Source of the DNA: an uncultured Anaerolineales bacterium
GTDB taxonomy: Bacteria > Chloroflexota > Anaerolineae > Aggregatilineales > Aggregatilineaceae
Assembly (NCBI GenBank): GCA_937135955.1
Contig: CAKZOB010000041.1
Span: 1 to 64,000, forward strand
Direction: 5' to 3'
Length of the DNA stretch: 64,000 nt
Shown here piece after piece: positions 40,151 through 55,497 of this stretch. Numbering within the stretch: position 1 is the stretch's first letter; every line of letters starts with the position of its first letter. The notes under the pieces were generated by a model. It worked only from the letters and a program-made list of their open reading frames with translations. It made no database searches and was not told the DNA's origin. A program made the translations under genes and the position numbers.

Positions 40151-41893
40151 GTGAACAGTAAATCACGCCGCGCCAGGATGCAGTGGTACCGCGTAGACCT
40201 GCATCTCCACACGCCCGGCTCCGCCGATTACCAGGAACCGGAAGTCAGCTATCTTGATATTCTGCGCCAGGCCGAGGCGCGCGGGCTGGATATCGTCGCC
40301 TTCACCGACCACAACACCGTGGCCGGTTACCGCGCCATGACCGAGGAAATCGAGCAACTGGAACTGCTGGCGCGGCTGAACCGCATTCAGCCCGACGAGC
40401 AACGCCGCCTGGACGAATACCGCCGCCTGTTGGACGCGGTGCTGGTCTTGCCGGGGTTCGAGTTCACCGCTACCTTCGGCTTTCACATTCTGGGCATCTT
40501 CCCGCCCGATACGCCGGTGCGGCAGCTAGAGCATCTGCTGCTCAGCCTGAACATTCCCCCAGCCGTCCTCGACCAGGGCACGTCGAACGTGGGGGCATCG
40601 GCGGACGTGCTCACCGCCTACCGCAAGATCAACGAGGCAGGCGGTATTGTCATCGCCGCGCACGCCAATTCAGCGCACGGGGTCGCCATGCGCGGCTTCG
40701 ACTTCGGCGGACAGACCAAGATCGCCTATACCCAAGACCCCTACCTGCACGCGCTGGAAGTCACCGACCTGGATCGGCGTGGTCGGCACAGCACCGCCCG
40801 TTTCTTCGACGGTTCCAAGCCCGAATATCCGCGCCGGATGCACTGCATTCAGGGATCGGACGCGCACCGGCTGCTGGCCGACCCGCGCAATCCCAAATAC
40901 CTGGGCATTGGCGATCGCATCACCGAGGTCTTGCTGCCGGAGCGCTCCTTCGCTGCGCTGCTGGAAGTGTTCCAGAGCAACGACTTCGCCCGCACCCGCC
41001 CCTATCAGCCCAGCCACGATCCCTACGATCATGTGCAGGCCGCCCGTGAACTGGGGCCGAACATCGTGCAGTCGTTTCACGAGGCTGTCACGCGACGCGG
41101 GGGACGACTCTATGCCATCGTGGCCGATGTGTGCGCCTTCGCCAACACCAACGGTGGCACCGTCTACGTGGGCGTGAGCGCCAAACCCAAAGACAAGCCA
41201 ATCGGCGTGCTCAATGTGACCGAGGCGGTCGAATTGCTGCGCGCCGAGATCGAACACAAGATCACCCCGCCGCTGGACGTAGAAATTGATGTGCTGGAGT
41301 CGCGCGGTAAACAGGTGATCCGCATTCAGGTGCCGCGCGGCGACGACCCGCCCTACGCCCTGGACGACAACAAGGTCTATGTGCGCGACGAGGCCGAGAC
41401 CAACCTGGCTGTGCGCGACGAGATCGTGCAACTGGTCGCGCAGAGCCTGGCTCGCCGCGGGGTCGTTACCGCTGCCGAAAGCCCCGCGGCTGCGTCTGCG
41501 AGTGAGGCGGAAACACCGCTCCCCGCGTCGTCTGAGCCAGCCACCATCGAGCCGCCGCGCACCGGCGTGGAGATCATCGGCTCGGAGCAGCGCAAGGGCG
41601 TGATGTATCACGTGATGCGCGACCTGCGCAACGGCAACGTGGTCAAGAACGTCACGCGCTCGTCGGCGCGAAGGCTGTGGCACTACGCCATCACCGAGAA
41701 AGAATCGAATCCGGTGCAGCCGGACAAGGTCGAGTGGCGCGGCGACATCGGGCTGTGGAAGCGCTACAAGCGCGGTGGGACGGTGCGCTACGACCTGGTG
41801 CAGCGGGTCAATGGCGAGTTGCGCGTCTACTACGGCGTGACCTACGACGGGATGCACGGCCCCTGGCAGGTCTTCGCCGGAGAGGACGAATAG
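40151..41893 (+). CDS. PHP-domain phosphoesterase fused to an AlbA-type (Schlafen-like) domain
   Basis: 580 aa. The start is the GTG at 40151 (GAGAGG about 10 nt upstream; ATG 40178 is an alternative). The PHP domain (about 15-290) shows the metal motifs [22 protein letters not shown] and QGSDAH. A second domain (about 300-435) is like AlbA_2/divergent-AAA proteins ([14 protein letters not shown], then [13 protein letters not shown]). A linker and an unassigned C-terminal domain (about 470-575, with basic and aromatic residues) follow. PHP plus AlbA in one chain suggests a nucleic-acid-linked hydrolase, possibly in defence or stress; no partner gene is adjacent. Confidence 0.8.
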
Positions 41894-44341: not shown

Positions 44342-46009
44342 TCAGGCCGGACTCGTGCCTACCCCAGACTCCAGACTCAAGATTCGCTGTTCCTCGGTGA
44401 GCGGATGACCGGCGCGATCCACCGCCCACACCGCCCCTGCGATACTGCGCGTGCGCACGCGCCCCGGCGCGTAGGGATTGTTGACCAGTTGCGGCGCGTC
44501 GAGCAGACCCACAGCGACCGCCCGCGCCAGCACGTCCGCATCCGCCAGCGGGTCATCGGAGTCGCTCCCCAGGGCGCGGATGGCGTCTATCAGGCGCTCC
44601 GTCTCGGCGATCAGCTCTTCTTTGCGGCGCTGCACTGCCGGGTCGGCGGTCATGTCTGGATTGCCGCGCAGCGCCGTCTCGATCACGTCCTGGGCCATGA
44701 TCGCGCTCTCGATGACCTCGTCGGCGGTGGCAGCATGATCGGCCTCGGTGTAGCCGACGATGTGCACGATGTGCGGGCGCAAGGCCATCTGGAGCATGAT
44801 GCTTTGCGCCAGGTGCGCCCGCGCGCGCCGTGAGTCCACGGGGTAGCTGAGCAGGCCAGTGCGCGTCTGCCGCCAGACGCGAAACGTCTCGCAGGCAAAG
44901 CGCTCGCTCATCTCCACGATGGCCAGCGCTCGCGCCAGGTCCATGGCATTGGAGAGCTGCGGCGGACTCTCGAACATGTAGGTCAGGATGTAGTCGCGCA
45001 CGCCGTAGTGCCGGGCGTTGTAGGCGTAGAGATAGGCCGAAGCGCAGACCACCACATCGGGCGCGTCGCGCATCCCCCAGTGATAGGACTCGTTGCCCTC
45101 TACCGGGATATTGCGTTCGCCATGCCAGGCCATCAACGCCTGATGCTCGCGAATGGACTGCGCCAGCGACGACGGCCCGCGCCCATCCATGGCGTTGAAC
45201 CAGAACAGCGAGGTGGCACACCAGGCGTTGTGAATGGTGCGCACCAGCAGATCGGCATAGCGCAGATGATCGGCGGTGCCAGAATACGAACGCAGCAGCG
45301 GGTAGTTGCCCCGCCGACTGGCCTCGTACAGACGGCGCAGGTCGTCTTCGCTGCGGAAGGGCACCCCGCCCGCGCCCTTGCTGCGCGGGTCCTGGCGGGA
45401 GGGGCGGAAGAAATTCTCCTGCGCGTCCTGGTCGGCCCCCAGCGAGATCACGTCCAGCACGCCGGCCTCGGCGATCTGCGCGATGCCCTCGACCGTCGGG
45501 TCAATGGTGGGCGCGGGGATGCCGAAGTGATGGCGCAGCAGCGGATAGGGCGCTTTCCAACGGATGCGCTCGACCGTCTGCTGAGGGAAGGCATCCGGCC
45601 CGCGCTCCTCGACAGGGTAGCCATCCAGAACCTGACGCACGCGGTAGGGCGGTTCGTCGCCAGAGAAGACGGCGTCGAAATAGCCCATCTCGCGGGCGAT
45701 GGCTGCTACGGGCGGCGTCCCGCCGAAGAACAGGCGTTTGTGCCCCAGCACGCCCGCCGTTTCCAACATGCTGCGCAGTTCCGTCAGCAGGATGCGCGCG
45801 TTTTCGGGCGTCAGGCGATAGCTGACGCCGATCACATCCGGATCGTAGGCGACAATCGCATCGAGGAAGCTTTCCAGATCGGTAGCCGGGCCGGTGAAGT
45901 GTGTCTCGTAGCCCGCTTCTTCGGCTACGGACAGAAAGCGCGTGACGCCGGCCACATGCACGCAGTCGCCCAGGCTGCCCGCCAGTACTTTGCCAGTCTT
46001 GTGAGACAT
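44342..46009 (-). CDS. Cobalamin-binding mutase-like protein
   Basis: 555 aa. The ATG at 46009 has AGGAGG 5 nt upstream. The N-terminal domain (about 5-130) is a B12-binding Rossmann fold (VLAGSLGDCVHVAGVTRFL, then IGVSYRLTPENARI and FFGGTPP). The usual DxHxxG reads DCVHVAG, with one extra residue. The rest (about 150-480) looks like the TIM barrel of glutamate/lysine mutase-type enzymes (EGIAQIAEAGVLDVISLGAD; DGRGPSSLAQSI; VEGNESYHWG). It may catalyse a carbon- or amino-group rearrangement. It is transcribed after the opine-dehydrogenase-like gene (58-bp gap). The last dozen codons are repeat-derived. Confidence 0.72.
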   Translation of the reverse strand: MSHKTGKVLAGSLGDCVHVAGVTRFLSVAEEAGYETHFTGPATDLESFLDAIVAYDPDVIGVSYRLTPENARILLTELRSMLETAGVLGHKRLFFGGTPPVAAIAREMGYFDAVFSGDEPPYRVRQVLDGYPVEERGPDAFPQQTVERIRWKAPYPLLRHHFGIPAPTIDPTVEGIAQIAEAGVLDVISLGADQDAQENFFRPSRQDPRSKGAGGVPFRSEDDLRRLYEASRRGNYPLLRSYSGTADHLRYADLLVRTIHNAWCATSLFWFNAMDGRGPSSLAQSIREHQALMAWHGERNIPVEGNESYHWGMRDAPDVVVCASAYLYAYNARHYGVRDYILTYMFESPPQLSNAMDLARALAIVEMSERFACETFRVWRQTRTGLLSYPVDSRRARAHLAQSIMLQMALRPHIVHIVGYTEADHAATADEVIESAIMAQDVIETALRGNPDMTADPAVQRRKEELIAETERLIDAIRALGSDSDDPLADADVLARAVAVGLLDAPQLVNNPYAPGRVRTRSIAGAVWAVDRAGHPLTEEQRILSLESGVGTSPA

Positions 46010-46067
46010 GATCACCTCCTGCGTTCAGGTGAAGGGCATTGTGAGGAGGGAGAACGATAGGGCGCGT

Positions 46068-47216
46068 TTAGCGAGCAGATTGCTGATGCCCATCGGCGGG
46101 GGCAGGTTCGCGGTCGGTGCTGCCCGTCTCGACCAGGCGGGTGATCTCGGTCAGCGACAGGCCCACCAGTCCCATGCGCTCCAGCGTGCGCCCACGATAG
46201 CGATAATCCACGCCATCCACCACACAGGCGAGCTGAATCATCGCTTCCATGCCCCAGACTTCCACGCCGAAGCGTTTGCCCAGTTCGGCCATGGGCACCA
46301 GGCTGTAGGGCACATCCTCGAAGATATAGCGATGACGGACGGTGCGCGGCGCTTTGATGCCCCGGTAGCCGGGGTTGTCGTGAATGGCCTGGTGAAGGTT
46401 GTCGCCGTGCGCGGAGTAGGCGCGCGCCAGCCATTCCTGGGCCGTCTGCGCGCGGACGCCCAGTGCCGCCGCAACCGTGACGCGCTCGCGATCCAGGCGT
46501 TCCAGGATGGTTGCCGTCGCCGGAGTGACGCCGTCTATGTAGAACTCGAACTCGCCACCCGTCCGTTCGATCCAGCCCATATTGAGCAGGGTCAACGCCG
46601 GATGAAAGACTGCTCCCATATTGTTCAGGCTGGTGTAAAGCACGTTGGGCGCGGCGATGAATTGGGGGTAGACCTCTTGCAGCACGTTGAGCACGTCGGC
46701 GGTGCGGCTGGCGGGCAGGGCGGCCAGCGGGACGGAGTTCTTGCGCCGGAAGATGCGCGCTTCCGCCGGGCCGTTGCTGCGGCTGGCGAACAGAAATGTC
46801 TCTGTCTCGGCGACGATGACATCCGCGGTGCAGCCCTCCTGCTGCAAGATGTGCCGGAATTCCAGCGCGCCGCCTGTGCGCCCAGGGTTGAGGATGACGA
46901 TCTGCCCATCCTGTAGATGCGGGGCGCAGGCCAGGGCCACGTCGCGGTGCGCCGAGGCAGGCACAACCACCATGATCAGGTGTGCGCCATCGAGCGCCTG
47001 GGCTATGTCGCTGGTCACCACGCGGATTTTGCCGAAGAACTGCTGCCCGTCTTCCATGATGACTTCGATCCCGCAGCGGGCAGCGATGACGTCAATGTGC
47101 TGGTAGGTGCGGTTATAGAGGCGCACGGAATAACCGTGCACAGCGAGGTCAGCGGCCATGGCTTTGCCGCCATGCCCGGCCCCGATCACCGTGATCTGTA
47201 AATCTTTGTCAAACAT
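46068..47216 (-). CDS. NAD(P)-dependent octopine/nopaline-type dehydrogenase
   Basis: 382 aa. The Rossmann motif GAGHGGKAMA is at about 12-21, and the second domain has AVFHPALTLLNMGWIE, where octopine dehydrogenases carry the catalytic His. Opine dehydrogenases join or split an amino acid and a 2-oxo acid by NAD(P)H-dependent reductive condensation. In this pair the cobalamin mutase-like protein may act on the released amino acid. SD AAGGGGA before the ATG, promoter at 47360-47387. The pathway is inferred from gene order only. Confidence 0.85.
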   Translation of the reverse strand: MFDKDLQITVIGAGHGGKAMAADLAVHGYSVRLYNRTYQHIDVIAARCGIEVIMEDGQQFFGKIRVVTSDIAQALDGAHLIMVVVPASAHRDVALACAPHLQDGQIVILNPGRTGGALEFRHILQQEGCTADVIVAETETFLFASRSNGPAEARIFRRKNSVPLAALPASRTADVLNVLQEVYPQFIAAPNVLYTSLNNMGAVFHPALTLLNMGWIERTGGEFEFYIDGVTPATATILERLDRERVTVAAALGVRAQTAQEWLARAYSAHGDNLHQAIHDNPGYRGIKAPRTVRHRYIFEDVPYSLVPMAELGKRFGVEVWGMEAMIQLACVVDGVDYRYRGRTLERMGLVGLSLTEITRLVETGSTDREPAPADGHQQSAR

Positions 47217-47359
47217 GGCGTCCCCTTGTGGTCGCTACAGCCCCCCCTCGGACAAAGGACTTGAGCGCACAACTGGCGCAGCGAGTAGTCTGGCTCTGCT
47301 CCGCAGGTTGGAAGCCGAATCATCAGTGCGGCACGCAAGAGGCGAACGCTGGCGGGGCG

Positions 47360-47387
47360 AGTATAACCGATCGTGAATGGAAAACAA
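47360..47387 (-). promoter_or_regulatory. Promoter of the opine dehydrogenase/B12 protein operon
   Basis: On the minus strand TTGTTT (47382-47387), a 16-bp spacer and TATACT (47360-47365), about 145 bp before the dehydrogenase ATG. No other feature is seen in 47217-47498. Confidence 0.5.
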
Positions 47388-47498
47388 AAACCGCAATGAA
47401 GCAGGGGAATGGGATACGAACGAGAGATGGGGAGAACGGGGCGGATCTATTCATAAATTCGGTTCTGTAGGGGCACTGCTTGCTGCGCGCCAGGAATT

Positions 47499-48634: not shown

Positions 48635-51598
48635 CTACCCTTCATTGGCAGAAGCTGCGGGTACATTGAACTGCGCCCGCTCCTCAGCGGTCAATTCGCG
48701 CACCCGGCAACAGACGTTGGCATAGCGCAGCAAGTCGTCAGTCGCCTGCCAGGTCTGCCAGACTCGCGCTGTGCCGTCACTGCTGGCCGTCACGCTGTGC
48801 AGGCCGTCTGGCGACCAGGCCACGCTGCGCAGACCGTCGCCGTGTCCTTCCAGCACCAGCAGTTCGTTGCCGGTTGTCGCGTCCCACAGGCGCGCCGTGC
48901 GATCCTCGCTGGCGGTCAGGATGCGCTTCCCGTCCGGCGACCATGCCCCGCTGTTGACGGCGTCGGTGTGACCCGCCAGGGTTGCCAGCAACGCGCCGGT
49001 TGCGGCGTCCCAGACCCTGGCCAGGCCGTCGTCTCCAGTAGTCAAGAGCGCCGCGCCATCGGGCGAGGGCGTCACGCTGAGCACAGCCCCGCCATGTGCC
49101 GACAGAGTCATGACCTCAGCGCCAGTGTCAGCATCCCACAGGCGCACCGTCCCATCGCGCCCGGCGGTGATCAGGCGCGCGCCGTCCGCCGTCCAGGCGA
49201 CGTACTCCACCGTACCAGTATGCCCGCTGAGCGTCAGCACGCTGACGGGCGTTGCACCGCTGATGTCCCAGACGGTCGCCGTGCGCCGCACGGCAACGAG
49301 CAGGCGCGTTTCGTCGGGCGACCAGGCGGCGGCGCTCACCTCGCCGCCCAGGTCAGTCAGGACGAAGACGGGCGAGCCATCCGCCGCCGACCAGATGCGC
49401 ACCTGCCCATCGCCCGTCCAGGTGAGCAGGCGCGTGCCGTCGGCGCTCCAGGCCGCCCCATTGACACGCCCGCTGTGAGACAGGGTGAACGACAGTGCGC
49501 CGGTGACGGCGTCCCATACGCGAGCGGTGTTATCCCACGACCAGGTGAGCACCCGCGCACCATCCGGCGACCAACTCGCGCCGGTGATCCAGCCTTCGTG
49601 CCCGGCCAGCGTGAGCAGTACGTCGCCGGTGCTGGCGTCCCACAGACGCGCCATGCCATCGCGCGACCAGGTGAGGACGCGCGTCCCGTCCGCACTCCAG
49701 GCCGCCCCATTGACCCAATCCGCATGGTGCAGGGTGAGCAAGGCGCTGTCCGGACGGGCGTCCCACAGGCGCGCGCTGCCGTCGTCGGCGGCGGTGAGCA
49801 GGCGCGCGCCGTCTGGCGACCAGACCACATCGTTGACATCGTCGGAATGCCCGCGCACGGCGAAGAGCAATTCGCCCGTGGCCGCATCCCAGACGTAGAC
49901 AGCGCGATCGCGCCCGGCAGTAGCCAGGCGCGCCCCATCCGGAGACCAACAAACGCTGGTGACGGCGTTCACGTGCCCGCTCAAAACCAGTTGTTCGGCG
50001 CTGCCGAGCGCCGACAGCGCCCTATCCGGCTGATTGACTGCCGCGCCGACGTTCCACACCCGCGCCGTCTCATCGGCGCTGGCCGTAGCCAGGCGCGCCC
50101 CGTCCGGCGACCAGGCCACGCGGTTGACCGCGCCGCTGTGCCCTTCCAGCACGGCCAGCAGTTCCCCGCTGGCGGCATTCCACAGACGCACCGTGTTGTC
50201 GCGGCTGCCGCTGGCAAGCAAGCTTCCATCCGGCGACCAGGCCACGCTGCTCACCCAGGCCGTGTGCCCGCTCAGTGTACGCAGTAACGCGCCCGTGCGG
50301 GCATCCCAGACCATCACCAGGGAATCCGCGCCCGCGGTAGCGATCTGCGCCCCGTCCGGCGACCAGGCAATGTCGGTCACCCAGTCCGTATGCCCGACCA
50401 GCGTGAGCAGCGGTTCGCCGGTCGCCACGTTCCACACGCGCGCCGTGCGATCCCAACTGGCAGTCGCCAGACGGGATCGGTCGGGCGACCAGGCCACGCC
50501 AGAAACAGCGGCGGTGTGCCCCACCAGGCGGGAGAGCGGCTCCGGCTCGCTGGCGGCTTCCCACAGGGCTACCGTGTTATCAGCTCCGGCGGTGGCGATG
50601 CGCGCCCCGTCCGGCGACCAGACCCCGCGCAGCACCGCGCCGGTATGTCCGCCTAGGATACGCCGCGCCCGGCTGGCCTGCACCGCCGTCCCCAGGGCGC
50701 GATCGGCCTGCCAGACGTAGGGCAGGCGCTCCAGCGCTTCCAACGCCAGCAGCACCCCGCGTTCCGGATACGCGCCGAACAATTCGAGCTGCGCCTGCGC
50801 CGCCAGACCGATGGCCTGGGCGCGGTTGCGGGCCTCTTCGGCGGCCTGACGGGCGACCAGCGCTTCGGCGGCGTTGGCGTCGGCGCGCTGACGGGCGTCT
50901 TCGGCGCGGACGTACAGCACCAGCGACAGCACCAGCAGCGCCACGATCACAGTGACTACGGCGCTGATCACGGCATTGCGCTGTTGGCGGCGGCGCTGAG
51001 CGCGGCGGCTGGCCTGAATGTACTCAATATGCAGATCGGTAGGTCGGTTGCGCTGCTTGGCCAGGCCCGCGGCCAGCCACTCTTCGGCCTCTTTGAGCGC
51101 ATTACCGCTCAGCAAGAGGCTGCGGTCGCGGCGGCGGTCTTGCCAGTTGCGCGCGCGCACCAGCAGGCGCGTGTGCTCGCGCACGTAAGCCAGGTCGGTG
51201 TCCAGCGCATCGAGCAACGCCCCAAAAGCCCTGTCGAAGTCATCCTCTTCGCGGATAAAAACCCAGTTGTGGGCGTTGATGGCCGGGTGCAGACGCTTTT
51301 CGTCCGCCTCCTCGGTGATGGGGCGGTACAGCACCGGCATGATGCGTTTGTGGTGTTGCGCGGCGTAATCAATTTCTTTGAAACAGGTCACCGAACGCGC
51401 CGAGTCTGGACTGATGACGAACACAAAGGCATCCGCTGCCTCAATGCCCGCGCAGATTTCGCGCCACCAGTCTGCTGAGAGGGGGATATCTTCCCAGTCC
51501 ACCCAGGCGTCGCGGCCATGCGCGGCCAGTGCGTCGTGCAGGCGACGCACGAAGTCGGTGTCTTCGCGCGCGTAGGAGATGAACACTTCGCCCGGCAT
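48635..51598 (-). CDS. Membrane TIR-WD40 protein
   Basis: 987 aa, SD GGAGG before the ATG. The TIR domain (about 1-140) starts FISYAREDTDFVRRL and has the CFKE segment with Glu75 where NAD-cleaving TIRs have their catalytic Glu. A basic region leads to one membrane helix (about 209-230). An Ala-rich coiled coil (about 231-280) and 15 WD40 repeats follow (recognisable by WSPDG/WSADG), enough for two seven-bladed propellers. The TIR end and the propeller would lie on opposite sides of the membrane. Likely role: signalling or a sensor-effector with NADase activity; the target is unknown. Confidence 0.9.
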   Translation of the reverse strand: MPGEVFISYAREDTDFVRRLHDALAAHGRDAWVDWEDIPLSADWWREICAGIEAADAFVFVISPDSARSVTCFKEIDYAAQHHKRIMPVLYRPITEEADEKRLHPAINAHNWVFIREEDDFDRAFGALLDALDTDLAYVREHTRLLVRARNWQDRRRDRSLLLSGNALKEAEEWLAAGLAKQRNRPTDLHIEYIQASRRAQRRRQQRNAVISAVVTVIVALLVLSLVLYVRAEDARQRADANAAEALVARQAAEEARNRAQAIGLAAQAQLELFGAYPERGVLLALEALERLPYVWQADRALGTAVQASRARRILGGHTGAVLRGVWSPDGARIATAGADNTVALWEAASEPEPLSRLVGHTAAVSGVAWSPDRSRLATASWDRTARVWNVATGEPLLTLVGHTDWVTDIAWSPDGAQIATAGADSLVMVWDARTGALLRTLSGHTAWVSSVAWSPDGSLLASGSRDNTVRLWNAASGELLAVLEGHSGAVNRVAWSPDGARLATASADETARVWNVGAAVNQPDRALSALGSAEQLVLSGHVNAVTSVCWSPDGARLATAGRDRAVYVWDAATGELLFAVRGHSDDVNDVVWSPDGARLLTAADDGSARLWDARPDSALLTLHHADWVNGAAWSADGTRVLTWSRDGMARLWDASTGDVLLTLAGHEGWITGASWSPDGARVLTWSWDNTARVWDAVTGALSFTLSHSGRVNGAAWSADGTRLLTWTGDGQVRIWSAADGSPVFVLTDLGGEVSAAAWSPDETRLLVAVRRTATVWDISGATPVSVLTLSGHTGTVEYVAWTADGARLITAGRDGTVRLWDADTGAEVMTLSAHGGAVLSVTPSPDGAALLTTGDDGLARVWDAATGALLATLAGHTDAVNSGAWSPDGKRILTASEDRTARLWDATTGNELLVLEGHGDGLRSVAWSPDGLHSVTASSDGTARVWQTWQATDDLLRYANVCCRVRELTAEERAQFNVPAASANEG

Positions 51599-51959: not shown

Positions 51960-54900
51960 TCAGCGCGTGGGCGGAGGCACGCCGCGTGCCGCCAACCCCG
52001 GCGCGGGCCGCCACGACGGACTGTCGTTCCACGAGTTGGTGGGAGTCATGCGCAGCGGATTGCTACCGTCGGCCAGCATGAGGTAGATCGCGCCGACGCC
52101 GTCGCGGTCGGAGATAAAGGCGATCTGCGTCCCGTCCGCCGACCACTCCGGCCACCAGTCGTTCGATGGCGTCGTCGTCAGGCGGCGTTCGCCCGAACCG
52201 TCGGCGTTGATGACGTATACGTCGAACTGTCCATCGCGGTTGGACTGAAAGGCGATGCGCGTCCCGTCTGGCGACCACGCCGGAAAACCATCGTGGCCGG
52301 GGCTGAACGTCAGGCGCACCACATTGCTGCCGTCCGCATTCATGACGTAAATCTCTTCGTCACCAGAGCGCGAGGAATTGAAAGCGATGCGCGTGCCATC
52401 CGGCGACCAGGCCGGACTGCCGCTATTGGACCCTGGGCCGGTCAGGCGCTGCACGTTGGTCCCGTCGTCGTTCATCACGTAGATTTCGCTGCTCCCATCG
52501 CGGTCGGACGCAAAGGCCAGCCGCGTGCCATCCGGCGACCAGGTGGGGTGATACTCGTTGGCGGGGTGACGGCTCAGGTTGCGCACGTCACTCCCATCGG
52601 CATTCATGACGTAGAGATCGTTATTGCCGTCGCGGTCGGAGTAGAAAGCGATGCGCCCGCTCTCTGGCGACCAGGCCGGGTCGCGATCGTTGCTGGAGTT
52701 GTTGGTCAGGCGGCGCGTCAGGCCGCTTTGCACATTCATGGTGTAGATTTCGCGGTTGCCGTCGCGCTCCGACACGAAGGCGATCTCTCCCGCGCCACCG
52801 CCGAAAGGCGTGGCTGTCGGCGGGCCAGCGGGGGTGACGGTCGGCGGCACGAACGGCGTCGGCGAGGGCAGCACCAGGGTCGGGGGTATGGCGGTGGGCG
52901 GTTGCCCGCCGCCCGCGCCAGCGGGGAGGGCAATGCGGAAACCCAGCACGCCAATGGCATAGTCCGGATAGTTGCCGCCCTGGTAGAACGCCCGCGCATA
53001 GCGCGCTTCGTCGTGCCACGAACCGCCGCGCACATTGTGCATGTTGCTGTAGGGCGGGCCGGAGGGATCGCGCGCTCCGTCGGTCAGTGAGGCGTAATAG
53101 TCGCGCCCGTAATAGTCAGCCACCCATTCCCAGACGTTGCCGGCCAAATCGAGCGCACCTACCCACGACGCGCCGGCGGGGTAGCTGCCGACGGGCTGTG
53201 CATCGCCTGTGCAGCCTGTCAGGTTGGCCAGGGCACAATCGGGCGGGGTGTTGCCCCAGGGATAGACCCAGCCCTCCGGCCCTCGCGCCGCGTATTCCCA
53301 CTGTGCCCCGCTGAGCAGCGTCGCGCCGATCCACTCGGCGAAGGCGGCGGCGTCGAACCACGACACCCACACTACCGGATGGTTGGCCAGGGCCGGGTTG
53401 TCGAAGGCTGTGCGGTCGCGCGGGGGTGCGCACGCGCCCGCGTTGACACAGGCGGCATATTGGGCGTTGGTCACCTCCGTCTGTCCGATCCAATAGGCGC
53501 TCAGACACACCTGACGCACCGGCTTCTCGTCTGCGTCTCCTTCCTCGCTGCCCATCAGGAAGCACCCTGGCGGCACGGCAACCACAGAGATACCCCGATA
53601 ATCGCCCACGATGGGTGTCCAGGCGCGGTTGGCGCTGCCCGCAGGGATCAACGTGGCCTCAGGCGGCGGAGGAAAGATGACCGGCAGCCCTGGTGTGAAG
53701 CTCGGCTCCGGCGACGGCGTGACCGTAGGGGTGCGCGTGGCCGAAGGCATAGCAGTAGGCGTTGGGGAGGGGGTGGCGGTCGGTGTGGCGCTGGGCGTAG
53801 GGGTATCTGTCCAGGCTTTAGCGGTCGCCGTCAGCGCGGCGATGGCCAGCGCCTCGACCGTCGCGGCCAGGTCGGGTGTGGGCGTGTCTGTCCAGGCCAA
53901 CGCTGTCTGCGTCAGCCGCTCGGTTACCAGCGCCTGAGTAGTGGCGGCGATATCGGGCGTGGGCGTGTCGGTCGGGCGCGGCGAAGGCGTGTCGGTCGGC
54001 GTGACCGTTGGGCTTGGCGAAGGGGACGGAGTCGGTGTACTGGTGTCGGTCGCCGTTGGAGAGGGGGTGGCGCTCGCAACAGGTTCGGGCGAAACCAGCG
54101 TTTCCGTCACCTGCAGCACCAGTCCGCCCGCGACGGTCGGCGTCTGGCCCGGCGCAACAGTCGTCGCAGCGGGGGACGGGCTGGCGGAGGAAGTGGACGT
54201 CTCGGTCGCCAACACGACCAGCCCGCCCGCGACGGTCGGCGTCTGGCCCGGCGCAGCAGCGATTGCAGTGGGCGAGGGAGACGGCGTACCGGCTGGTGTT
54301 CTCTTTTCCCCACCTCTCAGGACTAACACTCCCGCGGCGACCACAACCGCCATGAGCAGCACCAGCGCGCCCCATACCAGCGAAACCCGCCCGCGTCGGG
54401 CTGCCTCCTTCGCAGGGTGGGGCGCGGGCGGCGTGCGGCCCGGCGTAGAGGGCGGCGGAGATGGGGGGCGCGACGGGGTGGGGGTGAAACGCGCTGGCGT
54501 TGGGCGCAGTTCCAGCGGGGCGGTGAAGAATTGAGTCTCCTCGTCGTGCGGCTGGCCTGCGCTGGCCTGGGCGAAAGCCTGGGCAAAGGCCGTCACCGTG
54601 GGGAAACGGTCGGCGGGAGACTTGGCCATCGCCCGCGTCAGCGTCGTTGCCAAAGCCGCAGGGAGATCGGGCCGCAACAGGTGCGGCGGCGGGGGTGGTT
54701 CGTTGAGATGCTTGTGCATCAGCCCGTAGGGCGTCGGGGCCTGGAAGGGCACCTGACCGGTGAGCAACTGATAGATCGTCACCCCCAGCGCGTACTGATC
54801 GGTGGCTGGCGTGGGCGGCTCGGCGCGCCATTGTTCGGGGGCCATGTAGAGCGGCGTGCCGACGACCGCGCCGGTGGCAGTCAGAGCGCTGGTGTGTTCG

Positions 54901-55400
54901 AGCAGCTTGGCAATGCCGAAGTCCACCAGAAAGGCGTTGCCCTGGTTGTCGAACATGATGTTGCTGGGCTTGATGTCGCGGTGGATCACACCCTGACGAT
55001 GCGCATAGTCGAAGGCGTCGGCGACCTGACTGAGCAACCGCGCGATCTCGCCCAGCGACGGCAACGGTCTGCCGGTGGCCTGGCGCTGCGCCATGCGGTC
55101 GGCCAGCGTGCCGCCCGTCAGCAGGCGCATGACAATGTAGCTGGTGCCACTTTCCACGCCGTAGTCGTAGATGGGGATGATATGCGGGTGTTCCAGGGCC
55201 GCCGCTGTTTCCGCTTCGCGGGTGAAGCGGGCGACATAGTCAGGATCGGCAGCCAGTGCAGCGGGCAACACCTTGACGGCCACAGCGCGCTTGAGCGCAC
55301 GCTGATAGGCCCGATAGACCGCGCCCATGCCGCCCCGACCAAGCAGTTCCTGCAATTCGTATTGGCCCAACACCTGGCCGGAGAGATCATGCGCGTCCAT
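51960..55400 (-). CDS. Ser/Thr kinase - FGE-like - PD40 propeller protein
   Basis: 1146 aa from the ATG at 55400. Kinase domain (about 14-275): Gly loop GRGGMG 21-26, Lys43, HRDIKPSN from His140, DFG 160-162. A Pro-rich stretch leads to one membrane helix (about 350-375). The roughly 200-residue Thr/Pro region holds internal repeats (APGQTPTVAGGLV twice; a 30-residue TDTPTPD unit). A sulfatase-modifying/FGE-like domain (about 600-825: PPGCFLMGSEEGD, VWVSWFDAAAF, GNVWEWV, VRGGSW) lacks both catalytic cysteines, so it is probably a binding domain. A six- or seven-repeat PD40/TolB-like propeller ends it. Kinase inside, sensor domains outside. Confidence 0.92.
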   Translation of the reverse strand: MDAHDLSGQVLGQYELQELLGRGGMGAVYRAYQRALKRAVAVKVLPAALAADPDYVARFTREAETAAALEHPHIIPIYDYGVESGTSYIVMRLLTGGTLADRMAQRQATGRPLPSLGEIARLLSQVADAFDYAHRQGVIHRDIKPSNIMFDNQGNAFLVDFGIAKLLEHTSALTATGAVVGTPLYMAPEQWRAEPPTPATDQYALGVTIYQLLTGQVPFQAPTPYGLMHKHLNEPPPPPHLLRPDLPAALATTLTRAMAKSPADRFPTVTAFAQAFAQASAGQPHDEETQFFTAPLELRPTPARFTPTPSRPPSPPPSTPGRTPPAPHPAKEAARRGRVSLVWGALVLLMAVVVAAGVLVLRGGEKRTPAGTPSPSPTAIAAAPGQTPTVAGGLVVLATETSTSSASPSPAATTVAPGQTPTVAGGLVLQVTETLVSPEPVASATPSPTATDTSTPTPSPSPSPTVTPTDTPSPRPTDTPTPDIAATTQALVTERLTQTALAWTDTPTPDLAATVEALAIAALTATAKAWTDTPTPSATPTATPSPTPTAMPSATRTPTVTPSPEPSFTPGLPVIFPPPPEATLIPAGSANRAWTPIVGDYRGISVVAVPPGCFLMGSEEGDADEKPVRQVCLSAYWIGQTEVTNAQYAACVNAGACAPPRDRTAFDNPALANHPVVWVSWFDAAAFAEWIGATLLSGAQWEYAARGPEGWVYPWGNTPPDCALANLTGCTGDAQPVGSYPAGASWVGALDLAGNVWEWVADYYGRDYYASLTDGARDPSGPPYSNMHNVRGGSWHDEARYARAFYQGGNYPDYAIGVLGFRIALPAGAGGGQPPTAIPPTLVLPSPTPFVPPTVTPAGPPTATPFGGGAGEIAFVSERDGNREIYTMNVQSGLTRRLTNNSSNDRDPAWSPESGRIAFYSDRDGNNDLYVMNADGSDVRNLSRHPANEYHPTWSPDGTRLAFASDRDGSSEIYVMNDDGTNVQRLTGPGSNSGSPAWSPDGTRIAFNSSRSGDEEIYVMNADGSNVVRLTFSPGHDGFPAWSPDGTRIAFQSNRDGQFDVYVINADGSGERRLTTTPSNDWWPEWSADGTQIAFISDRDGVGAIYLMLADGSNPLRMTPTNSWNDSPSWRPAPGLAARGVPPPTR

Positions 55401-55497
55401 GAGTAACCCCACAGGCAATGTGATCTTGATCACTCGGCAATCAGCAGTATAACAAAAAGTTTAGACCATGCCCAACCGGGGTGTCTTCTGGGCAGGA

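Follow-up and report, generated by a model that had tools for sequence, protein, structure and literature searches.

What could an opine dehydrogenase and a cobalamin-dependent mutase accomplish side by side? The question is raised by two adjacent genes in the first 64,000 nt of contig CAKZOB010000041.1 (hereafter, the window) from an uncultured Anaerolineales bacterium: one encodes an opine dehydrogenase (ODH), the other a fused B12-binding/glutamate-mutase-like protein (the mutase). The tentative answer is that they constitute a dedicated module, often controlled by cyclic di-AMP (c-di-AMP) and most likely serving to make an osmolyte of the N-carboxyalkyl amino-acid type, or a counter-ion for K+. 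Genomes, contigs, and loci are designated below by the handles G, C, and L.

The Gene Pair across Genomes

Both genes occupy the same strand at the positions given in a preliminary description of this DNA, which regarded them as one operon: the ODH stop at 46068 and the likely ATG of the mutase at 46009, situated behind an AGGAGG, leave a gap of 58 bp. The GTG at 46015, listed as the start of the mutase, is not a likely one, and the ATG is preferred.

By the preliminary description, occurrence of the pair only here would have counted against its proposal; the pair is real and not local. A close mutase was detected in 15 of 301 genomes of the window phylum, and the same 15 genomes, the window's included, carry an ODH that is 57% or more identical; one further genome of the phylum (G184) harbors a distant fused form of the mutase. 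The two genes share a strand in the same locus in 15/15 first loci (with repeats among them), in 77/80 named loci (72 within 300 nt of each other, five with 1.4–3.1 kb between), and in 37/40 loci of a second phylum group, showing conservation beyond one phylum group. The cultured Bellilinea caldifistulae and Ornatilinea apprima carry the pair as well, with no c-di-AMP riboswitch detected at either locus. Of the three named loci without ODH, L065 and L103 stop near a contig edge on the possible ODH side, and L064 features an unrelated gene. The named loci come from a genome scan by two sequence patterns, one of them G[ED]CVHVAG, keeping 80 of 422 relatives, so this sample is biased to the B12 motif; the 40 second-group loci were hand-picked from 85 positive genomes (39 genomes, G502 taken twice). 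Several loci are repeats: L032 and L034–L038 duplicate the named loci L079, L082, L087, L096, L094, and L107, and L190, L191, and L192 duplicate L067, L070, and L072. Of 100 genomes sampled from the window class, 43 encode the mutase, as do 85 of 398 in the second phylum group; the search on plasmids returned no match at E 1e-3.

The pair exists in two opposite gene orders representing two parts of the tree, which requires two changes of order, whereas shuffled data need approx. 25 (the placement of L046, a long branch, is unsure); the window possesses the ODH-first order and is nearest to a Thermoflexus metagenome-assembled genome. The ODH and mutase protein distances in 84 loci are correlated (r 0.85, or 0.81 without L046; 0/999 permutations as high), and a part of this correlation is shared ancestry. 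A candidate ODH–mutase fusion in L250 was rejected, its long frame being a mere upstream extension.

The Opine Dehydrogenase and Its Likely Substrates

The window ODH matches PF02317 (E 1.7e-49, 168.1 bits vs. a cut-off of 30), its N-terminal dinucleotide-binding domain matches NAD_Gly3P_dh_N (41.6 bits vs. 23.1), and its closest solved relative is ArODH (1bg6, E 1.8e-75). According to PMC10787698, six enzymes from a hot-spring metagenome represent a new ODH subclass (mODH) that accepts L-aspartate, L-glutamate, and cysteate as partners of pyruvate. This acid preference is set by Arg at position 111 and Gly at position 198 (ArODH numbering), and the double mutant switched Phe vs. Asp use.

The same signature (R113/G201) was found in 91/91 non-redundant paired ODHs, the window's included (three of them at only 27–28% identity, hence less sure in these columns), in 36/36 of a later paired set, and in 0/13 unpaired homologues. 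The latter were the 15 next-best loci (13 after removal of near-copies), with weaker matches left out, and they omit a 48% match in G192, which carries the signature. The His of the catalytic dyad is invariant in the 91 proteins; its partner is Asp in 81 of them and Glu in the other 10. The window ODH shares with the mODHs the Arg/Gly signature, the NADPH-site Arg, the His-Asp dyad, and ArODH as the closest solved or known relative, and the mODH metagenome stems from a study titled on Chloroflexi; unlike the window ODH, the mODHs come without a gene neighborhood in the same parts of PMC10787698, and the class of the window enzyme is assigned from sequence. Judged by its active site, the window ODH should use acidic amino acids; its sequence is compatible with both the making and the splitting of opines. 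As a separate observation, the locus L197 (2-7397) harbors Opp importer genes and an R/G-type ODH with no adjoining mutase.

A Divergent Branch of the Glutamate-Mutase Fold

The first 130 residues of the mutase match B12 proteins (1y80, Z 16.8; PF02310, E 2e-10, 41 bits vs. a cut-off of 32.1). Modeling of B12 and substrate binding had been suggested in the preliminary description; the AlphaFold model (73 aligned sequences) predicts the B12 fold at high confidence (mean pLDDT 91.4). Its best structural match is the glutamate mutase E chain (Foldseek E 2.5e-17; 1cb7_B, Z 32.9, root-mean-square deviation 3.0, 375 residues), followed by lysine 5,6-aminomutase (Z 30.9) and ornithine 4,5-aminomutase (Z 27.4), which bears out the glutamate/lysine-mutase-like barrel of the preliminary description. 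The extra residue which the same description saw in the B12 motif (DCVHVAG) is ruled out: in the gap-free alignment to glutamate mutase S, Cys16 occupies the Asp position of DxHxxG, and, among 113 aligned members, this position reads Cys in 111 and the textbook Asp in two, so nothing is inserted. His18 and Gly21 are retained in 113/113. Putative cobalamin binding and radical formation are predicted from these conserved residues and the fold.

The mutase scores below the curated cut-off of the MutE family (PF06368, 20.2 vs. 26.6 bits). In an hhalign comparison with three MutE rows (L193, 586.7 bits in PF06368; L194 and L195, taken by 81% and 48% identity to L193), His161, Gln197, and Tyr242 fall at the columns of the arginine claw, which we take to be Arg66/100/149 of glutamate mutase; the mapping (E 5e-4) is treated as a lead, since the hhalign probability was only 31%. 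Each of these three residues is invariant in 113/113 members, as are Arg148, 159, 219, 240, 277, 314, 383, and 462; going by this lead, the mutase seems to lack the claw. No Lys occurs among the positions at least 97% conserved in the 113 members (the best, Lys152, is Lys in 101), and with no invariant Lys there is no sign of a pyridoxal phosphate (PLP) lysine. Likely, the enzyme is a PLP-free carbon-skeleton mutase whose acidic substrate would be held unlike free glutamate.

Like glutamate mutase (MutS/MutE with GlmL, Clostridium cochlearium, 1cb7), the window protein combines a Rossmann B12 domain with a barrel, and GlmL/MutL is fused to or adjoins mutases of its type in some relatives; unlike it, the window mutase is a single chain with an N-terminal B12 domain and Cys for the motif Asp. 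With lysine 5,6- and ornithine 4,5-aminomutases it shares a related barrel (Z 27–31), and an Orr-like racemase and a GlmL-like protein occur at some module loci; by contrast with them, the module mutases have no invariant PLP lysine. The dehydrogenase neighboring lysine/ornithine aminomutases belongs to another family.

A c-di-AMP Riboswitch in Relatives

A c-di-AMP riboswitch (Rfam) was first met in L098, where it stands 122 nt ahead of a row of ODH, Ddl, MutL, and mutase genes; L098 is a locus titled Sumerlaeota and listed under the phylum of G301, which makes its phylum label doubtful. The RF00379 search covered 60 genomes, of which 54 encode the mutase, and yielded 25 aptamers over the cut-off, spread over 17 genomes. 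The surroundings were read for 21 of them (all but G370:C47, G314:C171, G332:C173, and G315:C32), and six are situated upstream of ODH/mutase genes: in L098, L200, L201, L202, L219 (the mutase of which sits on another contig than the riboswitch), and before the lone ODH of L211.

A covariance model of the 21 aptamers applied to 54 loci (the second group and others) gave 21 matches in 20 loci. All 21 lie at the head of the module, 37–492 nt ahead of either its first gene or the AsnB-like one; in L256, one switch precedes AsnB and another the ODH-mutase. Riboswitch-headed modules are thus present in 20/40 second-group loci and, besides, in six genomes of or near the window class. Rfam confirmed the riboswitch in the 16 second-group loci rechecked (all of the 20 but L251, L255, L262, and L271). 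Since several loci look like near-copies (L249/L251, L252/L255, and L266/L270/L276), they are not all independent. A candidate terminator-like hairpin was found in 7/8 leaders (six with a good T-rich tail) and in 15/20 second-group leaders, in a search where shuffled controls of GC-rich leaders often yield a candidate too. In five distinct loci (L067, L068, L070, L072, and L189; L067 was tested), the operon starts with a gene resembling c-di-AMP receptors. The module resembles a c-di-AMP (ydaO/yuaA) regulon in that relatives have an RF00379 aptamer ahead of the operon, in most cases together with a terminator-like hairpin; it differs in its targets, the genes of the B12 mutase and the ODH, and in the absence of the switch from the window genome.

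No cobalamin riboswitch was found ahead of the pair in 42 Rfam-scanned sources, the only one detected being downstream of the lone L211 ODH. There, the cobalamin riboswitch (L211, 3669-3933) and a gene for a PF01497 periplasmic binding protein might compose a B12 uptake set. Further c-di-AMP riboswitches stand before other genes: one (L204, 5122-5255) lies 52 nt before an open reading frame (ORF) resembling, by eye, NuoB/hydrogenase subunits, an unexpected target; two (L207, 6488-6627; L216, 6249-6381) directly precede related large ORFs (approx. 780 aa); and two leaders in G304 precede putative OpuAC-like ORFs.

Partner Genes of the Module

MutL is fused to the mutase in eight of 100 genomes of the class, and in five of 100 a canonical GlmL-type MutL (>500 bits) is encoded approx. 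2.3 kb from it; no canonical MutL was found in the genomes of this set without the mutase. The window genome contains a divergent MutL-like gene (G000:C8:6060-7412, L128) of a type common in the class with or without the mutase, adjoining the genes of a 1138-aa protein without a Pfam match and of an RnfC_N-like protein. As a dedicated reactivase it was rejected, because its type occurs without the mutase (e.g., in G240, G352, and G378) and six mutase genomes (G321, G324, G330, G350, G360, and G283) gave no MutL match.

AsnB-like genes were assigned by cluster in 13/96 first loci (between ODH and mutase in L056, L057, and L074) and lie within 4 kb in 8/40 second-group loci, six of them riboswitch-bearing; of three such proteins profiled, two exceeded the AsnB cut-off and that of L074 did not. 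Ddl-like ATP-grasp genes were assigned in 8/96 first loci (by cluster, two tested) and, on the same strand within 4 kb, in 3/40 second-group loci, none of which is an AsnB-like locus. Neither kind of gene was found within these limits in 29/40 second-group loci. A separate feature of the surroundings is a Na+/Ca2+ exchanger (L035, 7781-8770) and a DUF5698/DUF2179 protein (L035, 12782-13360) flanking the pair; the DUF5698/DUF2179 cluster occurs in 20/96 first loci.

One clade, designated MutL/Opp, adds an Opp-type importer (SBP_bac_5) to the row; a C45 Ntn hydrolase is present in several loci, and a gamma-glutamyltransferase with an Orr-like racemase in L188 and L191. In this clade, Pfam was run on single representatives, the rest being assigned by BLAST cluster. 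The preliminary description had advised a look for a reactivase or transporter nearby: MutL/GlmL and the Opp importer do accompany the pair in some relatives, but no importer lies beside it on the gene map of the window, nor on most relative and second-group maps.

What the Module May Produce

In the proposed pathway, ODH would couple pyruvate with aspartate, glutamate, or a closely related acidic L-amino acid at the expense of NAD(P)H, or catalyze the reverse, and the adenosylcobalamin-dependent carbon-skeleton mutase would rearrange the same acidic amino acid or the opine; the order of the two steps, too, is assigned provisionally. In many relatives, c-di-AMP would switch the module via the riboswitch, as a rule combined with a terminator-like hairpin that precedes the leading gene; in some, the gene row also contains an AsnB-like amidotransferase or a Ddl-like ATP-grasp ligase. 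The N-carboxyalkyl amino-acid osmolyte (or K+ counter-ion) would be produced at low c-di-AMP. Elsewhere, the c-di-AMP riboswitch governs salt and potassium balance, and the c-di-AMP level falls under osmotic stress. In G305, switches head the lone ODH of the acid-preferring type (L211) and a gene of the K+ transporter TrkH; in G301, a switch heads an OpuAC gene. The window genome encodes diadenylate cyclase and cobalamin adenosyltransferase, and we infer that its owner would use the module like the riboswitch-bearing relatives, despite a genome devoid of the switch.

A number of observations weigh against this assignment. Most of the aptamers read (15/21) head other genes, and the riboswitch stands at the pair in only five of the 54 mutase genomes (G302, G386, G357, G370, and G314, the last with its mutase on a separate contig). 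In the first set (1.35 Mb), the covariance model matched only 3/96 sources, all at the module (L071, L103, and the training member L098; Rfam confirms the former two), and no match was obtained in 14 loci outside the second group, including 11 of the MutL/Opp clade (L182-L192). The switches of G301 and G304 head other genes, and the pair there is not switch-led; RF00379 is absent from the window (Rfam) and, with stricter filters, from its genome (G000), and riboswitch-bearing modules are a minority in the window class. The link to betaine and K+ genes within the very same genomes is narrow. The lone ODHs of G192:C155 and G305 (L211) bear the signature without an adjoining mutase, although a mutase is encoded elsewhere in both genomes. 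In addition, the MutL/Opp clade, with its importer, C45 hydrolase, gamma-glutamyltransferase, and racemase, looks catabolic, and c-di-AMP switches govern cell-wall genes too, according to the parts of PMC3766115 consulted.

A more specific possibility, regarded as doubtful, is an opine-type compatible solute obtained by the action of the B12 mutase on the opine itself, with c-di-AMP control in many lineages and amidation or ligation by the AsnB-/Ddl-like enzymes. The narrowness of the betaine/K+ gene link weighs against both this version and the osmolyte assignment in general.

The preliminary description envisaged salvage, i.e., opine splitting followed by rearrangement of the amino acid: an imported opine or amide would be cut by hydrolases and split by ODH, and the freed acid would be rearranged by the mutase for catabolism. 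The grouping of importer, ODH, mutase, and MutL in one clade, the hydrolases and racemase there, and an Opp-ODH cluster without the mutase in G192 (the lone ODH of G192:C155 adjoining the importer) speak for such a route, whereas such genes are limited to that clade and absent from the window map and most second-group maps. The c-di-AMP riboswitch (20/40) and the AsnB-like (8/40) and same-strand Ddl-like (3/40) neighbors in the second group make synthesis fit better, so as a general role salvage is unlikely and was not upheld by the comparison, with no importer at most pairs.

Less probable still is a cell-wall module, where a modified aspartate-like residue of peptidoglycan would be attached by the Ddl-like and amidated by the AsnB-like enzyme; the ATP-grasp, AsnB-like, and racemase neighbors and the control of wall genes by c-di-AMP switches (PMC3766115, in part) are in line with it, but none of four Ddl-like proteins profiled (those of L098, L035, L257, and L278) reaches any D-Ala ligase cut-off shown, and the 29 second-group loci lacking both partner genes count against it. 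A staphylopine-like opine metallophore system, to which the ODH with the SBP_bac_5 importer in one clade and a weak CntA match (89.8 bits vs. a cut-off of 800) might point, is very improbable, as the importer is not beside most pairs and the radical mutase would be left unexplained, in a comparison that included no search for metallophore synthases, exporters, or metal regulators. Overall, the weight of the context favors a c-di-AMP-governed pathway in many lineages, probably osmotic, salvage being the other live direction.

The Window Locus and Its Surroundings

The coordinates of the features in the window are collected in Table 1. Upstream, the pair is flanked by an XdhC-like gene and downstream by a molybdopterin oxidoreductase gene (Pfam); neither belongs to a gene cluster common to the other loci compared. 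Further away, the window encodes a 987-aa WD40-repeat protein (48635-51598), the first residues of which appear TIR-like by eye with no tool match; a single 1157-aa protein with kinase, FGE-sulfatase, and PD40 propeller domains (51960-55433); and a PHP-like domain (under the cut-off) fused to a Schlafen AlbA_2 domain (40151-41893).

Table 1. Features of the ODH–mutase operon in the window.
Feature	Position	Strand	Basis
ODH, putative acid-preferring mODH type, 382 aa	46068..47216	-	PF02317, 1bg6 match, Arg/Gly signature, His-Asp dyad
Fused B12-binding/glutamate-mutase-like protein, 555 aa	44342..46009	-	Pfam, alignments, predicted fold
AGGAGG, likely ribosome site for the mutase gene	46015..46020	-	Sequence
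Operon leader	47217..47498	-	Without Rfam match, unlike riboswitch-bearing relatives
Arg113 (ArODH Ala111, mODH-582 Arg110)	46878..46880	-	Alignment, column counts, PMC10787698 (in part)
Gly201 (ArODH Asn198, mODH-582 Gly198)	46614..46616	-	Alignment, column counts, PMC10787698 (in part)
Arg36, site marking NADPH acceptance (ArODH 35)	47109..47111	-	Alignment, PMC10787698 discussion (in part)
His205, catalytic His-Asp dyad	46602..46604	-	Column counts
Asp301, catalytic His-Asp dyad	46314..46316	-	Column counts
B12-binding domain, residues ~7-132	45614..45991	-	PF02310; 1y80 Z 16.8
Motif GDCVHVAG: His18; Cys16 replaces the usual Asp	45947..45970	-	Alignments, family columns
Mutase barrel, residues 137-541	44387..45601	-	1cb7_B Z 32.9, 375 aligned

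Implications

In searches of the open-access literature, no paper was found joining ODH with the mutase, or a c-di-AMP switch with glutamate mutase. The riboswitch ahead of the module is a new association, and the pair together with the switch points to a pathway not described before. For acid-preferring ODHs, so far described as biocatalysts (PMC10787698), the pairing supplies a partner gene along with a probable role in cell physiology, and the glutamate-mutase fold gains a widespread branch, for which no characterized member was found. The module also links B12 chemistry with c-di-AMP control. If the mutase did act on the opine, both the route to the osmolyte and the class of mutase substrate would be new.

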